Positions 267 to 21,932 of a DNA stretch of 32,919 nucleotides are shown here, piece after piece. Every line of letters begins with the position of its first letter. Position 1 is the first letter of the stretch. A program made the translations under genes and the position numbers. Origin of the DNA: Microcaldota archaeon (GTDB taxonomy: Archaea > Micrarchaeota > Micrarchaeia > Anstonellales > JAGGTN01); assembly GCA_021163645.1 (NCBI GenBank), contig JAGGTN010000040.1, positions 1 to 32,919 on the forward strand. Reading direction: 5' to 3'. The notes beneath the pieces were generated by a model. That model made no database searches, had not been told where the DNA came from, and saw only the letters and a program-made list of their open reading frames with translations.

Positions 267-3230
267 ATGAAAGGATTGAATGTAAAGAAAATCGCCGCAT
301 TGGCTGCGGGCGCTTTATTTATTGGTAGTGCAGCAGTTGCAGCTGGCGTGATATTCGAAGACACACAGTTGGTTAGCGACCAAGGCATACCTCAGGCAAC
401 AGTTATCGTCGGTAGTAATGCGATGGTATCTGATGGTATTGCTGCAGGTAGGATCGCTGCTAAGTTGGCTTCCGAATCATACAAGGAAATGACATACACA
501 GCAACAACAGCAGGAGCTGGCACATGCACACCAGTAACAACAGGCAATGAGACAGCTGGCACATGCCCAATAACTGATGAATCAGTTACCTTGAAGATTA
601 CTAGCCCAGGGATTAGCGGAGTGACCACATTTAAGACATTGATACATGACTATATTGATAAAGACCTTGAAAACAGGTATAATGATGGGTCAAGCGATAA
701 ATATAATTGCAATACAGATGACTCTGATGATGCATCTCCATTCACAGAAGGGTCTGGGACCTGTTCTCCTGACGAAAGGAAGATGCACAGAATAGATGGA
801 AATGACTTTACACCCTTTGCACAGAAGACAATCACAGATAACCAAGGAGGAGGTACATACAAAGAAGAACAATACGCTTGGATAAAGGGGGATACAGAAT
901 ATGATGGCACCAGTGCTGTTGTTGGAAAAATAGATGGATTTGGATATTCAGTTAAATTCTCAGATCCATATACAGGTATTCCATTGTGTTCTGATGACCA
1001 AGACGGAGATAACAATTGGGCTGATTGTTATTCTGGTGGAGATGTTGCAAATGACGATTACAGAACAGATAATCACAGAGTAGAGATAAGCTTCTTAGGA
1101 TCTGACAATTGGGTTATTACAGAATTGTCACCACCCTCAGGAACTTTGGATTCTGAAGATAAACTCAAAGAAGGAGGCACTGTTAAGTTGGCAAAAGAAT
1201 CTAATTGGGGCGTCCTTGATATTGGTGATTCATTAACAAGCGGAAATTATAAAATTACCTTAGACGATATTTCAACAGCAGTCGGATCAGGTAATGATCA
1301 TCCAGCCATTATATCAATATATGATACAACCACAGGTGAAAAATTGAAACAAAACCAGATAAACCCAACTGAAACGAAAAAGATTACATTACCAACAGGA
1401 GATACATTATCAATCCATGTCTATGAGACAGCACCAGGTTATACATTGACAAGTAAATGGGCAGAAATGGCTGTATATGAAAATGAGATTACAATTAACG
1501 GAGACGGTGGAAAAATAACAGGCACATCTGATGATACCAGTAATAAAAAATACAAAGCATATATCTATTGGAAGAATAAAGATGCAGATGCAACAGCCAA
1601 TGATATAGATACAATAAGAGCAATAACAATATGGAATGATGACACTGATGTTACTTTGAATGAAGGAGATACTTATCCAATGATGGCTGGTGGGAATCTA
1701 GATGCTTTCCAATTGACTTATGAAGGATTAGAATCTGCCGATATGGATTCACTTAAGTTTGACATGAAAGATTACAGTAAAGGAATGGACAGTTTAACCA
1801 TCTGTGGAAGTTCTTCAGTAACAGGAGGATATGATGAAATGACTGGTGCATCAACTTACGGGTTAAGTATGGACCTTTCATCAGCTGATAAGATATCTTA
1901 TGTAAAAGTAACAACAGAAAAGAATAACGGCTTCAGGATCGGAGGATATTCTGGTGATTCTTTGTACTACATCTTAGACGGCTATGGTGAAAACAGAGCA
2001 GGAGCAATATCAAGTACAGGTACAACTGCTGGTGGTGATAGATATGTTTGTATCACTAATGCTGGAACTGCCCCTAGTGATGACTATTACAATGGATGGA
2101 GACTATGGTGGGATCATGATGATGATGGTGACATAGAGTCCACCGAGTATTATTCTGTTTCAGATACAGAAGGAACTCCTTCAACAGATTGTGCTGGTGG
2201 AGAAACAGAGTTAATATTAAGTAGTACTGTATCTGGTGTTGCAGGCACAGGTTCATTTGTCCTAGGTCCAAAAGCAGGTGACTTATTCATATACAAGGAT
2301 ACAAATGATTGTTGGATGCCAGTAGATGACGGAACTTCTACAAGCGATATTGAATATAAGGGTGCAGGTAATTATGTATCTGGTGCTTCTGGATATGGAT
2401 ATATGAAGTTTGCAATAGATGCTGCTGATTATTCAGCAACATTGGCCACATTTGATATCTATGAAGATGCAGGCAAATGGACTGATGGAACCACGACAAC
2501 AGATCATGCACAAGATTCAATCGAATTCGTAGGTGAATTATCTTCTGGTGATTGGAGATTCGCAAGTGCTACAGGCGTAGATGATGACAAAGCAAAATAT
2601 GGATGGACTGATGGATCAACTACATCAACTGAAGAAGAGGACTTTATCACAGAGAGAGGCTCTGTGTTTGAGGATTTGGGTGATGAGAGATATTATTTCT
2701 CTATAGCACCTAAAGTACTTGAAGCACAATATACATACACGAATGCAGGAGAAGAAGCAGAGCCAAACACAAAAGAATTGATAATGCATGAAGGAGATAC
2801 AGAAACAATCGGCGATACCACAATAGAAGTAGAGTCAATCGATGAGGAAGTTGGTGCATGCACAACAACAGGAACAGGTGCAGCATCTTGCATGTATGAT
2901 GAAGGCAGTGTAACTGGAGCTATACAAGCACCAGACGGAACAACAATGAGTTCATTAACAGCTATGACACCTGGTTCAGTCAATCCAAGCACTCTTATCA
3001 AATTGGATAAGGATGCTATGAATGATGCTGTATTCATATCAGTCGGTGGACCGGCTGTTAATGAAGTAACAGCAAGGGAATTGACTGGTGCTAATGCAAT
3101 CGATTTCAATACAGAGAATGTCGTCACTAAACAGATATCCCAGGGTAAGATCATCGTTGCTGGTCTTACAGCACAGGATACATTGACAGCAGCTGACCAG
3201 TTCATAGCACAACTACAAAGGACTGAATAA
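267..3230 (+). CDS. S-layer protein (Methanococcus-type family, secreted)
   Basis: 987 aa; signal-peptide-like N-terminus; VIVGSNAMVSDGIAAGRIAAKLAS near the N-terminus and KQISQGKIIVAGLTAQDTLTAADQFIAQL at the C-terminus as in archaeal S-layer proteins; SD-like GAGGTGA upstream. Confidence 0.85.
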   Translation: MKGLNVKKIAALAAGALFIGSAAVAAGVIFEDTQLVSDQGIPQATVIVGSNAMVSDGIAAGRIAAKLASESYKEMTYTATTAGAGTCTPVTTGNETAGTCPITDESVTLKITSPGISGVTTFKTLIHDYIDKDLENRYNDGSSDKYNCNTDDSDDASPFTEGSGTCSPDERKMHRIDGNDFTPFAQKTITDNQGGGTYKEEQYAWIKGDTEYDGTSAVVGKIDGFGYSVKFSDPYTGIPLCSDDQDGDNNWADCYSGGDVANDDYRTDNHRVEISFLGSDNWVITELSPPSGTLDSEDKLKEGGTVKLAKESNWGVLDIGDSLTSGNYKITLDDISTAVGSGNDHPAIISIYDTTTGEKLKQNQINPTETKKITLPTGDTLSIHVYETAPGYTLTSKWAEMAVYENEITINGDGGKITGTSDDTSNKKYKAYIYWKNKDADATANDIDTIRAITIWNDDTDVTLNEGDTYPMMAGGNLDAFQLTYEGLESADMDSLKFDMKDYSKGMDSLTICGSSSVTGGYDEMTGASTYGLSMDLSSADKISYVKVTTEKNNGFRIGGYSGDSLYYILDGYGENRAGAISSTGTTAGGDRYVCITNAGTAPSDDYYNGWRLWWDHDDDGDIESTEYYSVSDTEGTPSTDCAGGETELILSSTVSGVAGTGSFVLGPKAGDLFIYKDTNDCWMPVDDGTSTSDIEYKGAGNYVSGASGYGYMKFAIDAADYSATLATFDIYEDAGKWTDGTTTTDHAQDSIEFVGELSSGDWRFASATGVDDDKAKYGWTDGSTTSTEEEDFITERGSVFEDLGDERYYFSIAPKVLEAQYTYTNAGEEAEPNTKELIMHEGDTETIGDTTIEVESIDEEVGACTTTGTGAASCMYDEGSVTGAIQAPDGTTMSSLTAMTPGSVNPSTLIKLDKDAMNDAVFISVGGPAVNEVTARELTGANAIDFNTENVVTKQISQGKIIVAGLTAQDTLTAADQFIAQLQRTE

Positions 3231-3234
3231 GCAC

Positions 3235-3275
3235 TTTCTTTACTAGCAGGCCCGCAAAAACCTGCACTAAGAAAG
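3235..3275 (+). repeat. 3' hairpin element copy 1, containing AAAACCTGCACTAA
   Basis: CTTTCTT...AAGAAAG outer stem and GCAGG/CCTGC inner stem; 14-mer at 3257-3270. Confidence 0.5.
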
Positions 3276-5912: not shown

Positions 5913-5952
5913 ATTTCACCAATCTTATATATATGTATAAGTTAGGTGAAAT
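5913..5952. promoter_or_regulatory. Long imperfect dyad covering the TATA-like region and SD of the AbiEii-like gene
   Basis: ATTTCACCAATCTTATA (5913-5929) and TATAAGTTAGGTGAAAT (5936-5952) are inverted repeats matching at 15 of 17 positions, 6-nt spacer. Confidence 0.6.
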
Positions 5953-5953
5953 C

Positions 5954-6607
5954 ATGAAACTGAGGATTATTGACAAGCTTAAAAAAAGAAGACATAAAGA
6001 TATTGCTTTGGTTCAAGATACTCTTATGGATATAATCTATGATGTATTCCCAAAAGCAATATTACATGGAGGCACAGCTATCTGGAGATGTTATGGAGGG
6101 AATAGGTTTTCTGAAGATATTGATATCTACCTGGATAAAAGTGATTTAAAAAAGGTAAAACTCTTTAAACAAAAGGCAAAACAAAGAAAATTAGATATTA
6201 AAAAGTTCAAAACGACGGCCGATACAGTTTTTTCAAAATTCTCTTTCAAAGGGATAGAGGTAAGATTCGAAGCTTCTTTCTTAAAGGTAAGAAGTAAAGA
6301 TATCGTGATCAAACCATATGAGACGAGCGATGGAAACTATATCAATGTATTTACTCTAAGCCCAGAAAGCTTGATAAAAGAAAAAGTGAATACATATCTT
6401 TCTAGATTACTAGTTAGGGACTTATACGACATATATATTCTTCTGAAACATGTTGAGAATAAAAATAAGGTTGGGTCTTATCTGAAGAGATTGTTATCAA
6501 AATACAAAAAACCAAAAGACGAAAAGATATTAAAAGCATTGGTATTTGTTGGTGCAGTACCAACACCTCAGCAGATATTAAAGGAGGTGAATAGATGGGT
6601 AAGATAA
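5954..6607 (+). CDS. AbiEii/AbiGii-type nucleotidyltransferase (toxin-like)
   Basis: HGGTAIWRCYGGNRFSEDIDIYL nucleotidyltransferase motif; ATG at 5954 preceded by GGTGA. ORF track starts upstream at 5933. Confidence 0.75.
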   Translation: MKLRIIDKLKKRRHKDIALVQDTLMDIIYDVFPKAILHGGTAIWRCYGGNRFSEDIDIYLDKSDLKKVKLFKQKAKQRKLDIKKFKTTADTVFSKFSFKGIEVRFEASFLKVRSKDIVIKPYETSDGNYINVFTLSPESLIKEKVNTYLSRLLVRDLYDIYILLKHVENKNKVGSYLKRLLSKYKKPKDEKILKALVFVGAVPTPQQILKEVNRWVR

Positions 6608-7197
6608 AATATCTAAATGAAGTAAAAACCTTCATCCTCAAAGGTAAAGCTTTCAATGTAAAAGATATAAAAAGATTCCTGATATCAAAACAAGCAAATC
6701 CAGATTATGCTTACTCTATAATACATAACATGATGAAAAAAGGGCATATCCACAGGATTACAAAAGGATATTATAGCAGATTTGATGACCCTATGATAAT
6801 AACTTATTGCATAAAACCATCATACATCGGATTAGAAAATGCACTCTCAATACATGGTTTATGGGAACAGGAATCTAACGTAGTCCTAATAACACCTAGG
6901 AGAATAAGATTTGGGATAAGAAAAATATTCAATACAAATGTCATTATCCACCATATTAATAAGAAATATTTTTTCGGTTATGATTACATAGATTATTACG
7001 ATTTAAAAATACCAGTAAGTGATACAGAAAAAACATTTATAGATTGGATTTATTATCACAACAAAATGAACATAAAATTACTAAATGATTTCATAGATAA
7101 GATAGATAGAAAAAAACTAAATAAATATTTAAAAAACTATGATAAAAAATTTGCGGAAAAGGTTCAATCCGTACTAAAACATAAAAACAATAGGTGA
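6595..7197 (+). CDS. AbiEi-like antitoxin/transcriptional regulator
   Basis: 200 aa, N-terminal wHTH-like region then PSYIGLENALSIHGL and SDTEKTFIDWIYY motifs typical of AbiEi-like proteins; overlaps the preceding gene by 13 nt. Confidence 0.65.
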   Translation: MGKIKYLNEVKTFILKGKAFNVKDIKRFLISKQANPDYAYSIIHNMMKKGHIHRITKGYYSRFDDPMIITYCIKPSYIGLENALSIHGLWEQESNVVLITPRRIRFGIRKIFNTNVIIHHINKKYFFGYDYIDYYDLKIPVSDTEKTFIDWIYYHNKMNIKLLNDFIDKIDRKKLNKYLKNYDKKFAEKVQSVLKHKNNR

Positions 7198-8800: not shown

Positions 8801-8971
8801 ATCATTATATAAGATTTTAGATGATTTTCTTCTAGACAATCCCTCAACTTTAGTCTTCTCTATGGATTCTGTTTTGTGTCTCACCTTTTCTCTTGGTGCC
8901 TTTATTTGTTTCTTTCTCTGTGTCTGCTTTTTCTTTTATTGCTTGTCTGTGTTTTTCTTTTCTCTCTTCTT

Positions 8972-9031
8972 TTAGTGCAGGTTTTCTTTGGATGTCCGAA
9001 GGAACTGAGGACACCGAAAGAAAAAGTGCGT
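8972..9031 (-). repeat. 3' hairpin element copy 3, just downstream of tRNA-Ala(GGC)
   Basis: Minus strand GCAC TTTTTCTTTCGGTGTCCTCAGTTCCTTCGGACATCCAAAGAAAACCTGCACTAA; stem TTTCTTT/AAAGAAA and GTGTCC/GGACAT; contains the 14-mer (8972-8985). Confidence 0.5.
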
Positions 9032-9035
9032 GTAA

Positions 9036-9158
9036 TGGACTCGGGGGGATTTGAACCCCCGGCCTCCTCCATGCCAAGGAGGCGCGCTTTAGTGGACTTT
9101 TCCGCAACGTACGCTTTTGCACGAAGTGCGAAAAGGCCGACCACTGCGCCACGAGCCC
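9036..9158 (-). tRNA. tRNA-Ala(GGC) with a 51-nt D-loop intron (9089-9139)
   Basis: Mature: GGGCTCG TG GCGC AGTGGTA GCGC G CCTCC TTGGCAT GGAGG AGGCC GGGGG TTCAAAT CCCCC CGAGTCC A; G3:U70 and A73. Intron flanked by a bulge-helix-bulge: stem GCGC/GCGC, central AGTG/CACT, bulges GTC and AAA, long inner helix. Confidence 0.92.
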
Positions 9159-17491: not shown

Positions 17492-17686
17492 CGGACCCAG
17501 AGGGATTCTCATACCCTTTTCATTTTCCCTGAAAAGCCCTTTCTTTTTTTGTGTAGGCATTTTCTTTTGGGAACGATTGGAATGTTTTGAACCCTCGACC
17601 TACTGGTGACTTCCTATTTAAAATCAATAGTTTTTGCTATTGATATGTTAAAAGCCAGCCGCTCTGCCAAACTGAGCTATGGGCCC
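17492..17686 (-). tRNA. tRNA-Lys(TTT) with two introns: 41 nt at 37/38 (17608-17648) and 80 nt in the T-loop (17506-17585)
   Basis: Mature: GGGCCCA TA GCTC AGTTTGGCA GAGC G GCTGG CTTTTAA CCAGT AGGTC GAGGG TTCAAAT CCCTC TGGGTCC G. Intron 1: central helix CTTT/GAAG, bulges TAA and TCA. Intron 2: central helix TTCA/TGAG, bulges AAA and AAT. Confidence 0.88.
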
Positions 17687-17825: not shown

Positions 17826-17934
17826 TGGACCTGCCGGGATTCGAACCCGGAGTCTTCGACTTTTCCTCATTCTCTTTATAACAAACCAAAGAGAACGTTG
17901 CGAAGCCGACGCCCTACCATTAGGCCACAGGCCC
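17826..17934 (-). tRNA. tRNA-Ala(CGC) with a 37-nt intron at 37/38 (17862-17898)
   Basis: Mature: GGGCCTG TG GCCT AATGGTA GGGC G TCGGC TTCGCAA GTCGA AGACT CCGGG TTCGAAT CCCGG CAGGTCC A; G3:U70, A73; 3-4-3 BHB geometry with inner 10-bp helix CGTTCTCTTT/AAAGAGAATG. Confidence 0.9.
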
Positions 17935-17937
17935 ATA

Positions 17938-18120
17938 AGTCCAGATATTTATTGCTGCATTATAATCCCTGTCAATAACCAACCTATATTTAGGACACTT
18001 ATGTACTCTTACAGATAAACTTTTTTTAACCTTATGCCCGCATCTGCTGCATTCCTGTGTTGCATTTCTTGGATTCATTTTTATTACTTCAGAACCAGCA
18101 ACTGCTATGAATTTATAATA
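17938..18120 (-). pseudogene. C-terminal remnant of an IS200/IS605-type TnpB
   Basis: FIAVAGSEVIKMNPRNATQECSRCGHKVKKSLSVRVHKCPKYRLVIDRDYNAAINIW: zinc-ribbon and RuvC-III-like region; second CxxC degenerated to CPKY; no N-terminal part; runs into tRNA-Ala. Confidence 0.75.
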
Positions 18121-18185
18121 CACTTTATATCCAATTACAATGGACAGGCTGGAAAATAAGTAAAATAGACCAGTTAATGATAGAA

Positions 18186-19112
18186 TTAAAGACAAAAATT
18201 GAGCATCCATGAAATAATAATACCTATAAGTGCGCCAGCCATTAATGGAGGTAGAGCAGGAAGCACCTGTTTCTTCTTTGTCATATATCTCATCAACAGA
18301 TATAAAGCTAATGTTGTGCAAATGATTATACATACGCTACCCATAAGTCCTAAAACAGGATATGCAGAAACACTTATCATGACAGGAACAACCAAATCTC
18401 CAGTACCTAATTCTGTCCTCTTTATCTTCTTAATTCTTTTTTCAAAAGGCAATTTTTCAAGCCGTTCCATTTCTTCTCTACTGGGTTTAGGCCCTACTGC
18501 AATCGTGAACGATAAATCCTGTTTAGTAAATCTCTCAGCAAACTTAATCATATGCTTTGTTTTGAATACAGCAATATAATCATACACAGATAAAAGCACA
18601 GCAAAAATAATCGCCGGCACAAAACCCAATGAAAACCCGAAAAGTGCACCAACACCTGCACTTGATAAGACAGCATTCACATTACGCAACGGGCTAACCC
18701 ATGACTTCCCAACAGCAAGTAAGAAACCTATCAGCAAGCTGACACACATAGAGACATTTGGATTAATTCCCAACACAGTTAAGATTACAAAAAAGACAAT
18801 TGATGATGCAAACATTACTACAAATATCTCTAATCCTTTGAATAACATTACCCCTTTATATATACGAATACCAAAATAGATTATGATTGCCATTATCAAA
18901 ATATATCCAATAAAAAATAATGAGTTCCAAATACTCCCTTTTTCAGCTATTGGTGTGACTGCCAATTCGTTAAATTCATGAATGGTCCTGCTATGATTGA
19001 TTATCAGCATACCAGTGATAAAACCGATTATCTGTGTTGTAAGAAACAACATGATAATAATATATCCTGGTGGAATCTTTTCAAATAGATTTCTTAAACT
19101 ATTACTCATCAA
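18186..19112 (-). CDS. Presenilin/signal-peptide-peptidase-like GxGD intramembrane aspartyl protease
   Basis: Multiple TM helices; SVYDYIAVFKTKHM (YD), ELGTGDLVVPVM (GxGD), QVLPALPPLMAGA (PAL). Confidence 0.85.
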   Translation of the reverse strand: MMSNSLRNLFEKIPPGYIIIMLFLTTQIIGFITGMLIINHSRTIHEFNELAVTPIAEKGSIWNSLFFIGYILIMAIIIYFGIRIYKGVMLFKGLEIFVVMFASSIVFFVILTVLGINPNVSMCVSLLIGFLLAVGKSWVSPLRNVNAVLSSAGVGALFGFSLGFVPAIIFAVLLSVYDYIAVFKTKHMIKFAERFTKQDLSFTIAVGPKPSREEMERLEKLPFEKRIKKIKRTELGTGDLVVPVMISVSAYPVLGLMGSVCIIICTTLALYLLMRYMTKKKQVLPALPPLMAGALIGIIISWMLNFCL

Positions 19113-20739: not shown

Positions 20740-21750
20740 ATGATCAGAGGAAAACTCAAAAGCCAGATTATCAAAGAAATAGATAATGCAAGAAAAGGAA
20801 ATTATCTATTCAAAGAAATCAAGAGATACAAACCAAATCCAGATAATAAACACGAAATGATATTCTTCATAAAACCAGAGCTGACAGGACCTAATATAAA
20901 TATCTCTCTATTTTTAGATATTATTTCAAAATCATTCGATAAATATAGTGTATCAATCGATGGTATCTTTGTGTTGGGGGCCGATTATCTCAAGAGATAT
21001 AATATCATCTCAAAACATTATGGAGTAATCTATACTCTAGCTAAGAAAGGAGTAGAAGCATTATCAGATGAAGCACGAGCTAAATTTATAAGTATATTCA
21101 ATATTAACCCAGATGAAGTAATCACTTTGGGTGCATATCAATTCTTAGATAAGTATAGATTCTTTAATCCAAAATCATTAGACGTATTATGGGAAAATAC
21201 AAACATCAATAGATTGGCAAGCGGGACATATTGTAGCAAACTCAAGTTGCATGCAGATAATATATACTTGATAAATGGCTTCATGCCAAGCCAGCTCTCT
21301 TTTTTCACAGATAAAGGTAAATCAATCGTTGTAATGGTTGTATCCTCATATAATGATTGGAAAATCCTACGTGAAGAGATGATTGGTTTTACTGATCCAA
21401 AGAAGGCATACGAAGGAACCATACGCAGAACGATTCTAGATGAAAAAGAATTGTTGAACATCAAAGAAGTCAGCCAGAGCCGTAATGGTGTTCACTTATC
21501 AGCAGGACCGATTGAAGCACTCGCAGAACTTGTAAGATTTGCCTCACGATATGATAAGAATCAGTACATTAAACCTATTGATACGGCAATGGGAAAAAAG
21601 ATTATCAATGCAGGCATTCCAGAGGATAAACTTGAATGGCTGATAACCAACCCAAAAGTCAATTATCTTGATAAGAATATTTCAATATTCGATTTAACTG
21701 AAGGGTTAAATCTAGAAGATACTATCGGAAAAATAAAAAATATTTTATAA
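20740..21750 (+). CDS. Nucleoside-diphosphate-kinase-like protein with a large internal insertion
   Basis: IKPE near the N-terminus; GFTDPKKAYEGTIRRTIL and SQSRNGVHLSAGPIEALAELVRFAS correspond to the NDK TDP..GTIR and NxxH active-site block; 336 aa versus about 150 for typical NDK. Confidence 0.65.
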   Translation: MIRGKLKSQIIKEIDNARKGNYLFKEIKRYKPNPDNKHEMIFFIKPELTGPNINISLFLDIISKSFDKYSVSIDGIFVLGADYLKRYNIISKHYGVIYTLAKKGVEALSDEARAKFISIFNINPDEVITLGAYQFLDKYRFFNPKSLDVLWENTNINRLASGTYCSKLKLHADNIYLINGFMPSQLSFFTDKGKSIVVMVVSSYNDWKILREEMIGFTDPKKAYEGTIRRTILDEKELLNIKEVSQSRNGVHLSAGPIEALAELVRFASRYDKNQYIKPIDTAMGKKIINAGIPEDKLEWLITNPKVNYLDKNISIFDLTEGLNLEDTIGKIKNIL

Positions 21751-21793
21751 CATTGAACAGGAGCCTTACTTCATAATATTGAAACAGAAAAGC

Positions 21794-21827
21794 GCAGTTT
21801 TTGCCCATCGGGCAAAACCTGCACTAA
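21794..21827 (+). repeat. 3' hairpin element copy 2 with AAAACCTGCACTAA
   Basis: GCAG T TTTTGCCC ATC GGGCAAAA C CTGC (21794-21822), 14-mer at 21814-21827. Confidence 0.55.
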
Positions 21828-21855
21828 AAAGATAGAGCAAGGATGCTTCATTATA

Positions 21856-21896
21856 GCAATCAAAGATTGCAACTTGGCAAATTGAAGATTTGCCAA
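21856..21896. terminator. Two tandem hairpins between convergent genes
   Basis: GCAATC AAA GATTGC (21856-21870) and TTGGCAAAT TGAAG ATTTGCCAA (21874-21896). Confidence 0.4.
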
Positions 21897-21932
21897 CCGT
21901 TCAACAGCTATAATTTTAATCTCATGATTAAT

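Follow-up and report, generated by a model that had tools for sequence, protein, structure and literature searches.

Several small mobile sequences have been described that resemble, in part, the element reported here. In Thermoproteales, introns have been transposed among tRNA genes, and reverse splicing has been proposed as the route (Fujishima et al. 2010, as summarised in PMC4033280). In Caldiarchaeum, a tRNA-Thr gene is disrupted by a mobile element, and mobile DNA has been proposed as a source of an archaeal tRNA intron (PMC3293823). The repetitive extragenic palindromes of the REP/RAYT system (PMC2817692, PMC3733652) offer a third point of comparison. A fourth is offered by the yeast mitochondrial GC clusters (PMC4478555) and the Rickettsia palindromic elements. 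The stretch of DNA analysed here, called the window throughout, is the 32,919 nt of contig JAGGTN010000040.1 (assembly GCA_021163645.1, a Microcaldota archaeon of the Micrarchaeota), and it holds three copies of a 14-mer, AAAACCTGCACTAA. This 14-mer is most probably the 3′ foot of a short, non-autonomous mobile hairpin that belongs to a new pan-archaeal family and is introner-like in tRNA genes. That the hairpins form a mobile family is well supported; to judge from the sequences, an introner-like role in tRNA genes is plausible.

How does the element compare with these systems? As in Thermoproteales, similar introns occur in different tRNA genes of one lineage, with apparent bulge-helix-bulge (BHB) splicing and several introns per tRNA. 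Unlike those introns, the element also lies outside introns, beside protein genes and tRNA ends; it is spread over several archaeal phyla, its core is conserved, and its insertions carry target duplications. With REP sequences it shares the form of a short extragenic palindrome, present in several copies and with a conserved foot, but most carriers have no Y1 transposase, the foot is GCAC rather than GTAG/CGTC, the target duplications are long, and some copies lie in tRNA introns. The GC clusters and Rickettsia elements are likewise tiny, gene-less mobile hairpins tolerated beside or inside RNA genes; they differ in sequence, domain and targets and are not known to form spliced tRNA introns. 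Unlike the Caldiarchaeum case, the element here is a non-coding hairpin of 33–90 bp. Rfam gave no match over the element in the window (gathering threshold) or on three loci (E ≤ 1), the only matches being host tRNAs and weak chance matches elsewhere, and no earlier description was found in the open-access literature under the motif letters, REP, tRNA introns or palindromes.

A conserved foot on a variable hairpin

The 14-mer occurs exactly at 3257–3270 (+), 8972–8985 (−) and 21814–21827 (+), as the initial annotation of the window had recorded, and at up to one mismatch the window holds no further copy. The annotation's judgement that three copies are not expected by chance is borne out: 100 dinucleotide shuffles of the window gave 0.02 ± 0.14 matches at up to one mismatch and never three. 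The genome as a whole (G000; 57 contigs, 894,786 bases, 88.6% complete, examined in the stretches around motif matches) contains 15 exact copies, compared with none of a reversed-pattern control; two AAACCTGCGCTAAA variants and several weaker ones are also present. All three window copies form the 3′ side of a hairpin, with RNA fold z-scores from −2.7 to −4.2 (Table 1), and each lies in sense orientation downstream of a gene (the S-layer gene, an open reading frame (ORF) and tRNA-Ala, respectively, for copies 1, 2 and 3), both of which had been noted from the sequence. The ORF at 20740–21750 has no Pfam match, so the name “NDK-like” given to it is unverified.

The 14-mer is one end of a structured unit, GCACTTTTT–variable stem-loop–AAAACCTGCACTAAAA, which is about 33–90 bp long and non-coding. 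The layout GCA(G/C)TTTTT in the initial annotation had captured the 5′ foot in part; the conserved unit also includes GCACTTTTT. The common fold, as RNA or single-stranded DNA, consists of a GCA/TGC pairing of 3 bp, a 2×2 CT/CC internal loop, an A-T stem, a variable top and the 3′ tail ACTAAAA, and the foot is GCAC in nearly all copies. In 73 of 78 distinct cores, the T-run exceeds the A-run by one nucleotide. Among the same cores, a pairing of at least 7 bp is found for 68% of arm pairs from one element and for 13% of pairs combined from different elements, and the inner stems differ widely in sequence (GCCC, CTTTC, GAATTC, GCTG and GTTTCT, among others). The stem covaries: its sequence turns over while pairing is kept. 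Both the 5′ foot and the arm pairing lay outside the search query. A purine mirror repeat able to form a triplex was considered and set aside; in T/C-rich arms the tail mirrors the purine strand of the stem, but pairing between the tail and the 5′ arm explains many cases equally.

The same layout is familiar from integrons. Their attC sites have a folded strand with paired feet, an unpaired spacer, a conserved inner stem and a variable top, lie flush with gene 3′ ends and form tandem arrays. The element shares the folded strand layout, the flushness with gene 3′ ends and the tandem arrays. It was rejected as an attC site on three counts: it has no GTT/AAC core boxes, it makes target duplications rather than recombining cleanly, and it has tRNA-intron and antisense copies. 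Head-to-tail arrays of the element occur at L091, L210, L212, L277, L278 and L041, some with spacers of 41–49 bp that are repeated along with it, like a cassette array.

Mobility and candidate mobilising enzymes

Evidence of movement comes from G280 and G281, sister species of one genus, in both of which twelve predicted empty sites were searched. For six insertions, the orthologous site is empty in the sister species while synteny is kept (L263/L296, L266/L297, L261/L307, L274/L306, L278/L308 and L271/L309). Target sequence is duplicated around several of them: about 33 bp at L271, about 19–25 bp at L266 and about 17–20 bp at L261, each single-copy in the empty sister site. L090 has a clean 12-bp flanking repeat. 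Flank pairs scoring at least 28 are found for 6 of 70 copies, where permuted pairs would give 0.03; L091 and L277, which are among the six, lie in arrays, so part of the excess is tandem duplication. The far side of the element carries a second copy of the beginning of the downstream gene at L276, and of the beginning of a tRNA-like sequence at L099, so that the gene appears rebuilt. A further site, L260/L304, is filled in both species, with a stem top that is wholly different yet still self-complementary.

The initial annotation had offered a small palindromic mobile element, MITE-like (a miniature inverted-repeat transposable element) or REP-like. Mobility stands, given the empty and filled sites and the target duplications; REP in the RAYT sense does not, given the foot and the absence of Y1 described below. 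A MITE is recognised by terminal inverted repeats and a duplication of fixed length; here the inverted repeat is limited to GCA/TGC plus the stem, and the duplications are of variable length.

An enzyme supplied in trans may move the element by acting on its folded single strand, and insertion would then involve a staggered break or a template switch in which the target is copied. One candidate enzyme is a Y1 HUH transposase, in which case the element would be a REP-like palindrome or one derived from IS200/IS605. A single-strand hairpin with conserved feet fits this idea, as do the TnpB remnant in the genome (17923–18333, PF07282) and the second hairpin that ends the fullest copies of the type A repeat, the dispersed repeat that carries copy 2. 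Y1_Tnp (PF01797), however, is present in 110 of 301 Micrarchaeota genomes but in only 2 of 13 motif carriers, once weakly; it is absent from the other 11, including G000, G280, G281, G296 and all carriers with at least six copies, with the caveat that metagenome-assembled genomes (MAGs) are incomplete. The foot is again GCAC, not GTAG/CGTC, and duplications of 12–33 bp flank several copies, whereas the IS200/IS605 class inserts without target duplication. A Y1-moved palindrome is therefore very unlikely. A retro-inserted element comparable to a short interspersed nuclear element was also disfavoured, with reverse transcriptase (RVT_1, PF00078) absent from 16 of 18 carrier genomes, subject to the same MAG incompleteness. 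The TnpB remnant itself is the C-terminal part of the protein (137-aa ORF) and runs into an intron-bearing tRNA (17826–17934), the two together spanning 17826–18333 (−), as though the tRNA gene had been the insertion point of a TnpB element or had interrupted it.

Placement beside genes

The left (GCAC) end of the element is often a few bases from a gene boundary, whether a tRNA 3′ end, the 5′ end of a tRNA in antisense, a stop codon, or the intron-side end of a 5′ tRNA exon. In ten contexts a tRNA edge falls within −3 to +4 nt of GCAC, always on the left; on the right, every tRNA edge is 41 nt or more from the element. Copies are flush with the 3′ ends of tRNA-Leu and tRNA-Glu, where the tRNA's own GCA doubles as the first three bases of the element, and, in antisense, with the 5′ ends of tRNAs for Ala, Arg, Thr, Leu and Cys. 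Ten stop codons end −4 to +1 nt from GCAC (L181 repeats L265), including that of window copy 1, which begins at 3231, 0 nt past the TAA of the S-layer gene (3228–3230). Antisense copies also stand directly before start codons (L078, L118 and L154). Insertions would be expected to persist at the least harmful places: past stop codons or ahead of start codons, and in the loops or at the ends of tRNAs. If avoiding harm were all that mattered, the distances should be spread out. This one-sided, flush placement is the most unusual property of the element; it points to an unrecognised insertion mechanism in minimal DPANN genomes.

Could the hairpin instead be a functional 3′-end element? The initial annotation had suggested a termination or RNA-stability role, in which the hairpin and T-run set transcript ends and are kept by selection behind genes and tRNAs. 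T-runs are typical of archaeal terminators, copies 1 and 3 lie directly behind genes, the stop codons are within 4 nt, and some sites are conserved across species of the ANME (anaerobic methanotrophic archaea) type. The T-run, however, precedes the hairpin, so the order of an intrinsic terminator (a G+C-rich hairpin and then a U-run) is not found; copies lie antisense at tRNA 5′ ends and beside the start codons named above; most related genomes have no copy, and sister species do without it at the same gene ends. Moreover, about 15 copies lie in sense between tRNA exons, where a working terminator would silence the tRNA. Hence, a termination or stability role is very unlikely. In the ANME-type genomes, the element occupies the same position across species at L078/L118/L154, L124/L142/L167, L113/L176 and L082/L126, before an ATG or tRNA-Leu, a pattern that hints at either a function or slow loss.

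tRNA introns

About 15 tRNA introns, read by hand, carry the element, always in sense and 0–2 nt past the 5′ exon. In G000 these are in tRNA-Ala(UGC), Arg(UCG), Ser(GGA) and, twice, Thr(GGU), whose anticodon-loop and T-loop introns hold near-identical copies; in relatives they are in tRNAs for Gln, Gly, Asp, Leu, Glu, Arg(CCU) and Ser. When 11 spliced sequences were submitted to ARAGORN, nine gave the expected tRNA (one being the window tRNA-Ala, from which an intron other than the element was removed) and two an ambiguous anticodon. Restoration of a tRNA by intron removal, which marks an archaeal BHB tRNA intron, is seen for the intron copies only. At L270, the Rfam tRNA model extends across the element with a score of 52 bits. 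By eye, the BHB is canonical for L204, L083, L076 and the T-loop intron of L067, and relaxed elsewhere. The host encodes one splicing endonuclease, a full-length match (E 5.9e-119) to the ARMAN-2 epsilon2 EndA (4fz2); this class is reported to have broad specificity and to cleave relaxed motifs at many tRNA positions (PMC6379350, PMC12397907). The host can apparently splice the element out of tRNA introns.

In the short introns L204, L083, L076 and L270, the element makes up almost the whole intron, and about 10 extra 3′ nt complement GCAC(TTTT) and the exon, as a BHB requires. This argues for creation of an intron rather than insertion into an old one. In a tRNA loop, the left foot would pair with a AAAAAGTG-type tail to form the BHB, and the epsilon2 endonuclease would then excise the entire element as an intron. 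It is possible, if somewhat doubtful, that the element is an archaeal introner, a mobile hairpin that, on landing in a tRNA loop, creates a spliceable intron whose 5′ end is the left foot of the hairpin. Such an introner would explain part of the extreme tRNA disruption in Micrarchaeota and would rely on an unrecognised insertion machinery aimed at gene edges.

Alternatively, the element could be a BHB intron that moves from one tRNA gene to another through reverse splicing, with intergenic copies as by-products. Movement of similar introns between tRNAs is known (PMC4033280), and the twin copies in tRNA-Thr, together with the sense orientation and 0–2 nt spacing of all intron insertions, are in line with it. 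Against this, at least half of the copies lie outside introns, and reverse splicing would not yield insertions after protein genes or antisense to tRNAs; nor would it be expected to leave target duplications, and reverse transcriptase is absent from the 16 of 18 genomes mentioned above. Reverse splicing as the source of the whole family is accordingly a distinctly improbable account.

What are the implications of a mobile hairpin in tRNA genes? First, how archaeal tRNA introns arose has long been a question, and because the element is polymorphic and occurs both as plain insertions and as near-whole tRNA introns, intron gain could be watched between sister species. Second, the element helps explain why standard finders miss tRNAs in such genomes. 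In G000, eight tRNA matches exceed the Rfam cut-off, several of them spanning 110–170 bases; for a genome that is 88.6% complete, this suggests that most of its tRNAs carry long or multiple introns. A split tRNA suspected at L004 was dropped, as the locus has a complete tRNA-Leu with its own intron.

Distribution and weighing of the evidence

Species-representative genomes were scanned for AAAACCTGCACTAAAARR, and counts refer to the matches listed. Among these, carriers belong to the Micrarchaeota, Diapherotrites, Woesearchaeota, Aenigmatarchaeota, Nanoarchaeota, Methanophagales and other ANME-type records, and Halobacteriales, and the 5′ arm (GCAC-TTTT) is present in 42 of 48 archaeal matches compared with 0 of 66 bacterial ones. 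In Micrarchaeota, 13 of 301 genomes have the motif, and two species belonging to one genus have 11 and 17 copies; the reversed control was absent from all listed genomes. The plasmids searched gave no meaningful match.

Several observations weigh against a mobile hairpin family. The genomes with many copies are draft MAGs, and the invariance of the 3′ foot AAAACCTGCACTAAAA is partly by construction, since the search was made with this foot. The element could be tied to no transposase, recombinase or reverse transcriptase, and no autonomous parent was found. Viral contigs held no full two-foot pattern, and all 13 viral matches of the bare 18-mer were without the 5′ arm. Duplication length varies, and some pairs of filled and empty sites have no duplication. 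About 20 non-intron copies are not flush with any recognisable gene boundary. Lastly, the conserved ANME-type sites (L078/L118/L154 and L124/L142/L167) could mean function rather than slow loss.

Features of the window

Table 1. Copies of the hairpin element in the window and the features they adjoin.
Feature	Positions	Strand	Basis
S-layer protein gene, stop abutting copy 1	267..3230	+	ORF; PF05124 S_layer_C, E 2.4e-11
Copy 1 of the hairpin element, GCACTTTCTT ... AAAACCTGCACTAAGAAAG	3231..3275	+	sequence; fold −11.7 kcal/mol, z −2.7
Copy 3 (tRNA-type), GCACTTTTTCTTTC-GGTGTCC..GGACATCC-AAAGAAAACCTGCACTAAAAG, then purine-rich tail	8968..9029	−	sequence; fold of 9026–8966, z −3.0; homologous copies after/inside other tRNAs
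tRNA-Ala(GGC) with 51-nt D-loop intron (9089–9139)	9036..9158	−	read by eye; ARAGORN after intron removal
Dispersed repeat of “type A”, truncated, with copy 2 towards its left end, ATAATATTGAAACAGAAAAGC..CCAACCGTTCAACAGCTATAAT	21773..21914	+	alignment of 8 genomic copies
Copy 2 core, GCAGTTTTTGCCCATCGGGCAAAACCTGCACTAAAA	21794..21829	+	sequence; fold z −4.2

Copies 1 and 3 would be insertions at gene 3′ ends, and copy 2 would have travelled in a larger MITE-like repeat (Table 1). Copy 1 has a variant fold in which CTTTCTT of the 5′ arm pairs with AAGAAAG of the tail and GCAGG with CCTGC. Copy 2 lies 43 nt past an ORF stop, and its 5′ foot is GCAGTTTTT. The fullest relatives of the surrounding type A repeat in G000 are about 290 bp long and have a second hairpin at their end; the best explanation is that the copy 2 core was captured by, or seeded, this larger repeat. 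Copy 3 starts 6 nt beyond the 3′ end of tRNA-Ala(GGC), a gene that ARAGORN missed because the D-loop intron hid it. That intron contains GCACTTCGTGC, ends in AAAAGTCCACTAA and looks like a shrunken element. Long A- or purine-rich tails of imperfect 12–15-nt repeats (aaagaaaggacac) follow tRNA-type copies in G000 (L001 1515–1780 and the tail of L012).

Two further parts of the window deserve mention. A probable tRNA-Lys(UUU) at 17510–17682 (−) has an anticodon-loop intron and a T-loop insertion, and was missed by ARAGORN and by Rfam at the gathering threshold. At 5933–7197 (+), an AbiEii-type nucleotidyltransferase toxin gene is followed by an overlapping ORF (AbiEi-like by position, with no Pfam match), adjoined by TatD-like and NYN-domain ORFs.
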